Shown piece by piece: positions 38,623 to 41,272 of a stretch of 64,000 bases of DNA; the first letter of the stretch is position 1; the number at the start of each line of letters is the position of its first letter. A program made the translations under genes and the position numbers. The notes beneath the pieces are model-generated. The model did not search any database. It worked only from the letters and a program-made list of their open reading frames with translations, and was not told the DNA's origin. The DNA is from Fimbriimonadaceae bacterium (GTDB lineage Bacteria > Armatimonadota > Fimbriimonadia > Fimbriimonadales > Fimbriimonadaceae): the NCBI GenBank assembly GCA_019638775.1, contig JAHBTD010000001.1, forward strand, positions 1,240,001 through 1,304,000. The letters are read 5' to 3'.

Positions 38623-38647
38623 TATAATATCGGTGATTCCCGATATT
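38623..38647 (+). promoter_or_regulatory. ArsR-type operator overlapping a consensus -10 box
   Basis: TATAAT at 38623-38628 is a perfect -10 hexamer. Overlapping it, AATATCGG (38626-38633) and CCGATATT (38640-38647) form a perfect inverted repeat with a 6-base centre. ATG of the regulator follows at 38655, so the leader is very short. This is how ArsR/SmtB proteins repress their own operons; a clear -35 is not seen. Confidence 0.75.
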
Positions 38648-38654
38648 TGATCTT

Positions 38655-39041
38655 ATGGACACCCTTGTAGCCTTTGGAAAAGCCCTTGCCGACCCCACGC
38701 GGGTTCGGATCCTGCATGCGCTTCGGCGTGAGCCGCTTTGCGTTTGCGAGATGATGGAGGCGCTGGAGATCGGTCAAAGCACGCTTAGCACACACCTTCA
38801 GACTTTGCGCAGCGCGGGTGTCGTTGAAACCGAACGTCGAGGCACGTGGATTATTTACAGCATTTCGCCGGAGGTTCGCGGCTCTTTGGAGACGATTTTT
38901 GTTCAGCTCCTGTCTGCCGACGAGCGCTTGCAGCTTGACACCGCGAGGCTGGAGAGTCGAATTCGCCTTAGGATTGAGGGTTGTTGCCCGGCCGATGCGA
39001 ATGGGGCACGCGTTTCTCGGGAGGGCGCGGCTCTTCGTTAG
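38655..39041 (+). CDS. arsR: ArsR/SmtB-family metalloregulator
   Basis: A 128-aa winged-helix repressor. LVAFGKALADPTRVRILHAL begins the domain, and PLCVCEMMEALEIGQSTLST combines the C-x-C motif of the arsenic/antimony sensor helix with the turn and recognition helix HLQTLRSAGVVETERRGTWI. The C-terminal tail adds a further pair, EGCCPADANG, which could complete a soft-metal site. It would leave DNA when As(III), Sb(III) or a similar ion binds. It is the first gene of a three-gene unit with a perfect operator over its own promoter. The metal cannot be fixed from sequence alone. Confidence 0.88.
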   Translation: MDTLVAFGKALADPTRVRILHALRREPLCVCEMMEALEIGQSTLSTHLQTLRSAGVVETERRGTWIIYSISPEVRGSLETIFVQLLSADERLQLDTARLESRIRLRIEGCCPADANGARVSREGAALR

Positions 39042-39054
39042 AAGGCACATTATC

Positions 39055-39696
39055 ATGAACTGGAAATCCTTACTCTGCACAGGGTTGCTGGCTATTTCTG
39101 CGGCAGCGGTTTCTCAGACGCCGCCGAAGCCGACGATTCAGGTGCCCACGTGAACTGGATGACCCGGTGAGGGTGGCTTCCTCGGTTCGGGGGAGATTAG
39201 CAAGACATGGACATTCAGCGGACGGTTTGTCGATATCGACTTGGAGCGCCCACGTTGGCGATTCACCGGCACGTATCGGTTCACTCCACGTTTCCAAGCT
39301 GGGATCGAGTGGAATCCATTGGCGCACGAGGCCGGGCTCATCGGCAACTGGATTTTGAACCCAGAGTCAGAGAAATATCCGATGGTGAACTTGGGCACGA
39401 GCAGTGATCGGATTGGCACACCCGCCGGGCCACATGCCTACTTCGTTACGTTTGCGAAGAGCTTCCCGGAGTGCAAATTGGGGCCCTATGTTTCAATCAA
39501 CTATTCGGAGTTTGACAAAGCGATTAACTTTCCGTTCGGGGTGAATTACGGGCTCGCCGAAAATTGGACAACGATGTTTATGAACGACGGTCGCAAGAGC
39601 CATCTGCTCTTGACGCACTCACGCGACAATTGGAGCGTATCTCTGATGTGGATTTGGTTTAAGCATCCGGGGATCAGCTTCAGTATTGGATTTTAA
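39055..39696 (+). CDS. Candidate di-selenocysteine secreted protein, U-x-x-U motif (TGA 39151-39153 and 39160-39162)
   Basis: The frame starts at ATG 39055, 13 bases after arsR, with a signal peptide (MNWKSLLCTGLLAISAAAVS), and runs in one phase to TAA 39696 except for two TGA codons, 33 and 36. Read as selenocysteine the junction is IQVPT-U-T-G-U-PGEGGFLG, a redox or metal-type U-x-x-U just behind the signal peptide. The remaining about 175 residues are rich in alternating aromatic strands (RWRFTGTYRFTPRFQAGIEW, YFVTFAKSFPECKLGPYVSI, NWSVSLMWIWFKHP), ending in Phe, as in outer-membrane beta-barrels. No family is recognised. Both interruptions are TGA, four codons apart, with intact reading on both sides, unlike random decay. 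Confidence 0.75.
39163..39191 (+). promoter_or_regulatory. Candidate SECIS hairpin after the double UGA
   Basis: GAGG (39169-39172) pairs with CCTC (39180-39183) around a 7-base loop that begins GT, with an outer helix CCCG (39163-39166) / CGGG (39188-39191). The loop is 19 bases after the first TGA, which fits bacterial SECIS spacing, and 10 bases after the second, which is short. The start of the loop with GU matches known SECIS loops. Confidence 0.45.
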
Positions 39697-39699
39697 GCT

Positions 39700-40353
39700 A
39701 TGAATACAATCATCTCACTCATTGCTATCTCGCTTGGACTGTTTGCTCAAGACACCCCTCAGACCATCGCTAAGAAAGACCTGCCAGCCAAGGCAGAGTG
39801 TGTGGTTTGTAACGCAGGCGGGGAGACGCACGGCGAAGAGAAGCCGGTCGCAGGCGTGATGTACAAGGGCAAGGCGTACTATTTCTGTAACGCGAAAGAG
39901 GTCGAAACCTTTAAAAAGAACCCCGATTTCTACATGCCCTTGAATCTGCCAATGCCTTTGCCAGACCTCAAGCTCACCGACACTTCCGGCAAGAAATGGG
40001 ATGCGGCTGCGTTCAAAGGAAAAGTCGTTCTTCTGGATTATTGGGCGACATGGTGCAAGCCCTGCCTCGTGCTGAAGCCGAAGATCGACAAGATTTGGGA
40101 GGCCAACAAGGGCCAAGGGTTTGAGATGCTGTCGGTGAGTATCGACGAGAAGCCCGCCGACTTTGAGAACTTCTTCAAGAAGACGAAGTGGGAGAATCCG
40201 GTAGCGCTGGACTCCAGTCAAAGCTGGGCGCATTTTCGAATCTTGACGATCCCGACCCTGGTCTTGGTGAAGGATGGAAAGGTCATACAAATCTTCAAGG
40301 GGAATATTGATCCCAAGAAGGTAGAGACTGCCGTCAAGTCTGCTCTGAAGTAG
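39700..40353 (+). CDS. Periplasmic YHS-domain plus TlpA-like thioredoxin
   Basis: A 217-aa fusion. After a signal peptide (MNTIISLIAISLGLFAQ), residues about 27-85 form a YHS/TRASH-like metal-binding domain: CVVCNAGGE, then VMYKGKAYYFCNAKEVETFK with the usual Y-F-C-N/S. A TlpA/ResA thioredoxin domain follows, with active site DYWATWCKPCLVLKPKIDKI and cis-Pro RILTIPTLVLVKDG. It begins 3 bases after the double-TGA gene, so it is the third gene of the ArsR operon. It could reduce, or deliver electrons to, the U-x-x-U protein, and the YHS domain could handle the same metal. The partnership is inferred. Confidence 0.88.
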   Translation: MNTIISLIAISLGLFAQDTPQTIAKKDLPAKAECVVCNAGGETHGEEKPVAGVMYKGKAYYFCNAKEVETFKKNPDFYMPLNLPMPLPDLKLTDTSGKKWDAAAFKGKVVLLDYWATWCKPCLVLKPKIDKIWEANKGQGFEMLSVSIDEKPADFENFFKKTKWENPVALDSSQSWAHFRILTIPTLVLVKDGKVIQIFKGNIDPKKVETAVKSALK

Positions 40354-40600: not shown

Positions 40601-41272
40601 TTACATCCCCATTTTCTGGGCGGCTTCGAGGATGTCAGCGCCTTTCATTCGGACCTTATAGTCCGGGTTTGTGGAGACGAACTGGATCGTGCCTTTGGCG
40701 TCGATCAGGAACACAGCTGGCACGGGAAGGATGTGGTGGGTCTGCCCGCCAGACGACTTCTCAAGGTCGATCTTGTACTGATCGCGATACATCGTGAAAG
40801 TCTTATCGTCAACGCGGAAGGCGATTCCAAACTTCTTGATGAGTTCGGCTTTGGAGTCGGAGACGAGCGTGTAGTTCAGCTTGTCCTTCTCCATCGTTTT
40901 GCTAAGCTCATCGGGGGTATCGGGGGTCACGGCGATGACTTGGAAACCAAGTTTGCGCAGGTCGGCCTCGACCGTCATCAAGTCGGAAAGGTGGCGGTTG
41001 CAGAAAGGGCACCATCCGCCACGGTAGAAGATGACGACGGCGGGTTTGCCGTTGAGGACCTTCTTGAATGTGGTTTCTTTTTTGTCGAGCGTTAAGACGC
41101 TGCTGTCGGGGACAGCAGTGCCAACCTTAATCGGCTTGACTTCGCTTGCGCTGGCTGCGACCATTTCATCACCGGTGCGCATAGCAAACACGGCGACGGG
41201 AATGGCAATTGCGGCGAGAACGCCCAGGGATAGAAGCGCTTTGGATGGGGTGGGGCTTTTCATGTGAAGCAT
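40601..41272 (-). CDS. Membrane-anchored AhpC/TSA-type peroxiredoxin
   Basis: A 223-aa protein with an N-terminal signal-anchor (LLSLGVLAAIAIPVAVFAM) and a redoxin domain. Active site VVIFYRGGWCPFCNRHLSDL: a W-C-P-F-C motif where ordinary peroxiredoxins have T-x-x-C, as in the PRX-like AhpC/TSA family. AVTPDTPDELSKTMEKDKL and YTLVSDSKAELIKKFGIAF complete the fold, with the late block VPAVFLIDAKGTI. The domain is probably on the periplasmic side, reducing peroxides or disulfides. ATG 41272 or 41263 could start it. Convergent with the ArsR operon. Confidence 0.85.
   Translation of the reverse strand: MLHMKSPTPSKALLSLGVLAAIAIPVAVFAMRTGDEMVAASASEVKPIKVGTAVPDSSVLTLDKKETTFKKVLNGKPAVVIFYRGGWCPFCNRHLSDLMTVEADLRKLGFQVIAVTPDTPDELSKTMEKDKLNYTLVSDSKAELIKKFGIAFRVDDKTFTMYRDQYKIDLEKSSGGQTHHILPVPAVFLIDAKGTIQFVSTNPDYKVRMKGADILEAAQKMGM

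Follow-up and report, generated by a model that had tools for sequence, protein, structure and literature searches.

A putative di-selenocysteine outer-membrane barrel protein and its probable YHS-TlpA partner in an ArsR-type operon of a Fimbriimonadaceae bacterium

Can a reading frame that is interrupted by two TGA codons directly behind a signal peptide encode a selenoprotein with two selenocysteines, and what would such a protein do in an operon that starts with an ArsR-type repressor gene? This question arises from a 64,000-nucleotide stretch of a Fimbriimonadaceae genome (contig JAHBTD010000001.1 of assembly GCA_019638775.1, positions 1,240,001 to 1,304,000), which is referred to below as the window.

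The operon has a TATAAT -10-like box (38623-38628, + strand), whose promoter function is inferred, and a perfect 8-6-8 palindrome, AATATCGG-TGATTC-CCGATATT (38626-38647, +), which overlaps this box and is a putative ArsR operator. At the matching position of a second locus (L084) the sequence is AATATCAATGATTCTCGATATT, which is identical at 19 of 22 positions, and other loci with arsR have weaker ATATC...GATAT-like sites at about equal distance. The first gene, arsR (38655-39041, +), codes for an ArsR/SmtB repressor with an LCVCE motif and a C-terminal CC. The second frame (39055-39696, +) opens with an ATG at 39055, 13 bases past arsR, and codes for a signal peptide, a U-T-G-U (UxxU) motif and a predicted 12-stranded outer-membrane beta-barrel. 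Its sole interruptions before the terminal TAA (39694-39696) are the TGA codons at 39151-39153 and 39160-39162 (+), which are read here as Sec33 and Sec36. Three bases beyond the barrel gene begins the third gene (39700-40353, +), which encodes an exported YHS-TlpA thioredoxin-like protein with a WCKPC motif, the probable redox partner. A first-pass annotation, made from the sequence alone, had described the operator on the TATAAT box, the gene spacings of 13 and 3 bases and the two in-frame TGAs with U-x-x-U spacing in an otherwise open frame, and all of these were found to be correct. Facing the operon, an AhpC/TSA-type redox gene (40601-41272, -) was observed that is distantly SelL-related-like and scores below the NCBIfam cut-off.

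Decoding of the two TGA codons

Gene calling with the standard code would end the barrel frame at 39153, as expected if both TGAs were real stops in a pseudogene or artefacts of sequencing. This possibility was weighed against the distribution of the two codons in homologous genes. When the read-through frame was searched against 61 relatives, 27 genomes yielded homologues, the strong matches having 39-58% identity and mostly exactly two internal TGAs. A phylum-wide search of 291 genomes gave matches in 72, and 80 named loci came from 84,980 species genomes scanned with search patterns that did not fix the Sec codons. The motif was found in 93 of 95 homologous loci (89 UU, 1 CU, 1 UC, and 2 CC), a set that is partly redundant in that some loci entered it twice, once by genome handle and once by GenBank name. 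Additional members comprise more UC and CU forms and five further CxxC YHS fusions. The first-pass annotation had named unrelated residues at the two codons as a finding that would refute it, and no motif-holding homologue has anything other than Sec or Cys there.

Both TGAs are kept in homologues across genera, families (39-58% identity), and about nine phyla, and the pair is therefore more than a chance occurrence. The locus titles name Armatimonadota/Fimbriimonadaceae, Gemmatimonadota, Latescibacterota, Acidobacteriota (Pyrinomonadaceae, Thermoanaerobaculia), Eisenbacteria, Krumholzibacteriota, Calditrichota/KSB1, Poribacteria, and a Deltaproteobacterium; the phylum counts are approximate, being drawn from titles of public MAGs, which may mislead (L107, L101). 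The title of L107 says Methanoregulaceae archaeon, yet the locus matches the Fimbriimonadaceae genome G011. For two loci in genomes assigned to different genera (L097 and L099, in G007 and G014, respectively), the barrel gene and its neighbours look identical, which reflects either a recent transfer or a mis-binned contig. Downstream of the TGAs, substitutions relative to L083 numbered 39, 25, and 104 at the first, second, and third codon positions, respectively, the third being dominant. The conservation of both TGAs in dozens of genomes, the purifying selection on either side of them, the Cys replacements at these codons and the covarying hairpin described below leave the pseudogene or sequencing-error explanation with practically no probability, and it was regarded as refuted by the comparative data.

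The first-pass annotation had proposed a search for selA, selB, selC, and selD, the absence of which would have refuted it, and all four are present in the host genome. The scores were 490.9 bits for selA (cut-off 267.9), 377 bits for selB (cut-off 242), 358 bits for selD, and 70.8 bits for selC, a tRNA-SeC(TCA) gene located on the window's own contig. The selD gene carries its own in-frame TGA (CAGUASK); SelD (L168, G000:C3:202514-203419, - strand; CAGUASKL) is itself a selenoprotein, which is an independent sign of a working Sec system in the host. Of the 61 genomes, 21 have the TGA form of the barrel gene, and a strong tRNA-Sec was detected in 20 of these versus 15 of the 40 others (Fisher P = 7e-6); the single TGA-form genome without one is 73% complete and has a SelB fragment. 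In two genomes with the CxxC form (G003 and G032), neither a strong tRNA-Sec nor a SelB above the cut-off was detected. These data also bear on the idea that UGA is decoded as a different amino acid (e.g., by a change of the code to Trp or Gly) or is simply read through. Such decoding would account for in-frame TGAs at two places, but many of the homologous genes themselves terminate in TGA, Cys codons are the only alternatives at the two positions, and tRNA-Sec is present together with SelABD. The code-change explanation was rejected on these comparative grounds and deserves hardly any credence.

A hairpin with a stem of 8 bp and a 3-nt loop (GUU) is located at 39177-39195 (+), 31 nt past the first and 22 nt past the second UGA. 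According to the published rule, a bSECIS has a loop of 3-9 nt with a G in the first two positions, lies 16-37 nt from the UGA and has an MFE of -7.5 or lower (PMC13188914). The hairpin with a GU-starting loop, which the first-pass annotation had noted and for which it had suggested a bSECIS check, meets this rule (loop GUU, 31/22 nt, -8.8 kcal/mol). At 62 of 78 loci the rule is met for each UGA, as opposed to 5% of windows elsewhere in those genes, and at 70 loci of this set the best hairpin is identical for both UGAs. The strict rule is missed by 16 of the 78 loci, including the Pyrinomonadaceae group, whose hairpin is placed differently. A weaker, differently placed hairpin 3' of the TGAs was observed in members with a UPLU motif (L148, L151-L158, L160, L162; mostly Pyrinomonadaceae) and is possibly a second bSECIS type.

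Of the 568 stem pairs that are possible in a set of 71 distinct sequences, 532 are formed, compared to 377.5±10 in a synonymous-recoding control (z = 15.4) and only 257-339 when the stem was slid along the sequence, and the first base of the loop is G in all 71. The stem-loop reads GTTCCTCG-GTT-CGGGGAAC in the Armatimonadota and GCCGCTCC-GGG-GGAGCGGC in the other phyla, where the encoded amino acids differ but the helix is equal. Folded alone, the 47 nt of the window performed no better than dinucleotide shuffles (z = -0.64); the case for a putative bSECIS is thus one of comparison, not of a single-sequence fold. As inferred from the spacings, one bSECIS apparently serves both UGAs. The presence of the machinery, the exchange with Cys only, and a hairpin obeying the bSECIS rule all support the selenocysteine reading of the first-pass annotation and, as far as a comparison of genomes can, demonstrate Sec decoding of both UGAs; biochemical evidence of Sec is not available.

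Predicted fold of the barrel protein and its conserved partner

Structure prediction by AlphaFold on the family alignment (pLDDT 93.2, pTM 0.87) resulted in a model with 12 main strands, which start about 16 residues past the second Sec and leave the UxxU motif in an N-terminal position. Structural comparison of the model retrieved FapF (Z 16.8; 170 residues, 2.6 A rmsd), KdgM (Z 15.6), and NanC (Z 13.8) as well as autotransporter domains, and PcoB (7pge) was among the Foldseek matches (E 0.051). The alignments with FapF and the autotransporters begin at residue 15 or earlier, which is the UxxU segment, and therefore suggest a plug-like position of this segment in the model; this is not proven, and the segment could reside in the lumen or, alternatively, at the periplasmic mouth. 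In 70 of 78 members the chain ends in Phe, which is the common signal for insertion into the outer membrane, and the N-termini of the barrel proteins are hydrophobic and, judged by eye, signal-peptide-like. The prediction of an outer-membrane barrel with 12 strands is thus a strong one. The assignment of the protein to the cell envelope in the first-pass annotation stood and could be refined, the barrel having gone unnoticed there. The selenoprotein and barrel parts of the reading are strong, although neither has been subjected to a biochemical test.

Scans of 70 members against Pfam and NCBIfam identified no fitting family apart from a weak match to the Pfam family YjbH in one of the 70 (E 8e-4), which was taken as generic barrel similarity, and none of the 70 matched CopB in Pfam at E 0.01. 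A sequence search of the PDB with the family alignment returned only a chance match (4fx7, E 0.09), and a plasmid search gave no match. A 2026 table listing 119 selenoprotein families (PMC13188914) does not contain the UxxU barrel either, and no report of the family was found in the literature, among open-licence papers only. The first-pass annotation had linked the layout to no named family, and indeed no NCBIfam or Pfam model fits; the family was filed as a new, previously unlisted selenoprotein family. It has no Pfam or NCBIfam entry despite its presence in about nine phyla, which may be explained by standard gene calling cutting the protein at the first UGA.

In 55 of 95 loci, from different phyla, the next gene in the same orientation is of the TlpA type (usually YHS-TlpA with WCxPC), in agreement with the YHS-TlpA gene described in the first-pass annotation. 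The TlpA protein of the window (WATWCKPC) matches Redoxin (56.6 bits) and Thioredoxin_8 (55 bits) in Pfam and has a signal peptide as judged by eye; its YHS part reaches 21 bits versus the Pfam YHS cut-off of 30.3. In the Pyrinomonadaceae the partner is a weaker profile match. CxxC members are fused behind YHS-like repeats in seven genomes, triple YHS/TRASH domains preceding CAGC-barrels in the fusions, and the one CxxC fusion tested had three YHS matches (66.3 bits). The conserved unit is a UxxU barrel followed by YHS-TlpA, and a functional link between the two is well supported by the gene context and by the attachment of YHS domains to Cys-form members. An AlphaFold model of a natural barrel-TlpA read-through fusion had a pTM of 0.67, so that a complex of the two proteins is neither shown nor excluded.

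Regulators, second clade, and possible function

The ArsR of the window scored 67.7 bits against HTH_5 (Pfam) and 95.7 bits against HTH_metalloreg (NCBIfam; cut-off 55). The typical As(III) site of ArsR proteins is an ELCVCDL-type motif (PMC4562236). In the LCVCE motif of the window protein, two of the three R773 cysteines are present, and the protein has both the ArsR winged helix and the Cys site. An upstream arsR was found in only 13 of 95 loci, all of the Fimbriimonadaceae type, and is a local addition; no conserved metal regulator adjoins the barrel gene in loci of other phyla. Of the ArsR-type operon claimed by the first-pass annotation, the sensor with its LCVCE motif was confirmed, but not as a part of the conserved unit. 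None of arsB, acr3, arsC, and arsM is found in the window operon.

A second clade of the family has the motifs CPLU (CxxU), UPIU (UxxU), and, in G003 and G032, CPLC, and is neighboured by a MerR with a Cys-rich tail plus a thioredoxin-like partner, by Cys-rich small proteins, or by YHS proteins. At L075 and L082, whose barrels carry UPIU, a MerR with EPC and ECLC cysteines is encoded upstream of the barrel gene, and at L075 the MerR frame runs on into a Thioredoxin_3 domain. Short exported proteins rich in CC/CxC, which are metallothionein-like in look, are encoded upstream of second-clade genes at L071, L074, L077, and L079. The host itself has a second-clade paralogue (L166, G000:C1:603000-611000; gene 606536-607135, - strand), which encodes a barrel (EARCPL-U-VAGGYGAGS) and has a single TGA followed by a hairpin. 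This gene lies about 2 kb from a gene for an ArsC-like protein of the LMW-phosphatase fold, and Cys-rich envelope proteins are encoded nearby.

The YHS/TRASH fusions, the LCVCE ArsR, and the second-clade context with MerR, Cys-rich, and ArsC-like proteins support a role in handling heavy metals. We therefore favour, at a probability of roughly 60%, an outer-membrane di-selenol protein that is reduced by YHS-TlpA and binds or gates soft metals or metalloids, a function that is inferred and lacks a biochemical test. SelB and tRNA-Sec would decode both UGAs as selenocysteine, apparently by means of one shared bSECIS, and removal of the signal peptide would leave a short N-terminal U-T-G-U di-selenol segment and a 12-stranded barrel in the outer membrane. 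The exported YHS-TlpA would most likely keep the di-selenol/diselenide pair reduced, or cycle it. In this lineage, soft metals of the As(III)/Sb(III) type or of other kinds that enter the cell would bind to the thiolate metalloid site of ArsR and derepress the operon; this metalloid-dependent release of the operator is inferred without binding data. At the mouth of the barrel, the di-selenol may then bind the soft metal or metalloid for export, sequestration, or gating, by analogy with PcoB, in which a segment of metal ligands at the N-terminus is joined to a 12-stranded barrel. Metal(loid) binding and gating remain inferences from the analyses above, as no metal-binding data exist; either of them accounts for the regulators and for the YHS/TRASH domains, and also for why two selenols are used. 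More tentatively, and with less than even confidence, the family may represent a new class of outer-membrane gates in which a diselenide/di-selenol pair at the mouth of the barrel, switched by YHS-TlpA as a dedicated thioredoxin that binds metal, captures soft metal(loid)s or lets them through the pore, with both UGAs decoded by a single bSECIS.

The strongest competitor of the metal reading is a pure redox role, in which metals are not involved and TlpA recycles the UxxU motif. It accounts for the TlpA partner just as well, and we consider it the less likely of the two. The protein could be an enzyme whose UxxU reduces peroxides or disulfides, or a pore gated by the periplasmic redox state. 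The best-conserved neighbour is indeed thioredoxin-like with WCxPC, many loci outside the Armatimonadota have no nearby metal regulator, and a gated barrel that carries a plug is known from FapF, the closest structural match. However, YHS/TRASH domains, the LCVCE ArsR, the Cys-tailed MerR, and Cys-rich peptides are repeatedly encoded next to members of the family, and Sec occupies both positions nearly everywhere, unlike in typical redox selenoproteins, which pair one Sec with one Cys. In favour of the redox role, redox enzymes make up the majority of the selenoproteins whose function is known (PMC13188914).

A quite different role, as an uptake porin for selenium compounds (selenite or organoselenium) that feed Sec synthesis, would fit the tie of the family to Sec-using genomes and has a precedent in the porin-like ExtI of Geobacter, whose gene cluster also encodes a predicted selenoprotein and which affects selenite and tellurite reduction (PMC5877670). 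This is very improbable: 15 of 35 Sec-using relatives lack the TGA form, G003 and G032 retain the CxxC form without strong Sec machinery, no selenium genes adjoin the barrel gene, and the ArsR/MerR/YHS context indicates toxic soft metals. The system would present a di-selenol on an outer-membrane barrel paired with a metal-type thioredoxin, and it is a clear example of two UGA codons, 9 nt from each other, for which a single bSECIS apparently suffices. The family makes it possible to test why two Sec are kept where Cys also occurs, and to test soft-metal or redox chemistry at the outer membrane.

Comparison with known systems

Known selenoproteins with UxxU include a Prx-like oxidoreductase (PF00578), the mercuric-reductase-like metal-binding NF041115, and an FmdB-family regulator (PMC13188914, Table 1). 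They share the U-x-x-U spacing with the barrel family but have other domains, the 70 barrel members matching 0 NCBIfam families. Selenoproteins of the outer membrane are also known, namely GSU2204/MtrB-PioB (NF041027) and the TonB-receptor FCYXU type (NF049945), with a single Sec each (PMC13188914). Like the barrel family they are outer-membrane proteins containing Sec, but neither model matches the barrel family, in which two Sec precede a small 12-stranded barrel. The predicted barrel architecture of the window protein is that of FapF and KdgM/NanC, at an identity of only 11-15%. To our knowledge, FapF and KdgM/NanC have no Sec or CxxC and no YHS-TlpA partner. With ArsR-controlled metalloid operons the window shares the LCVC-type ArsR and the putative operator on the promoter, but its operon is without arsB, acr3, arsC, and arsM and controls a di-Sec barrel and YHS-TlpA instead. 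In PcoB/CopB, an outer-membrane barrel with N-terminal soft-metal ligands has an operon-encoded periplasmic partner (PMC9210255, PMC12509749). The ligands of PcoB are His/Met where the window protein has a di-selenol, the sequences do not match, and regulator and partner differ, but the combination of a barrel, N-terminal ligands, and a partner encoded in the operon resembles the window system.
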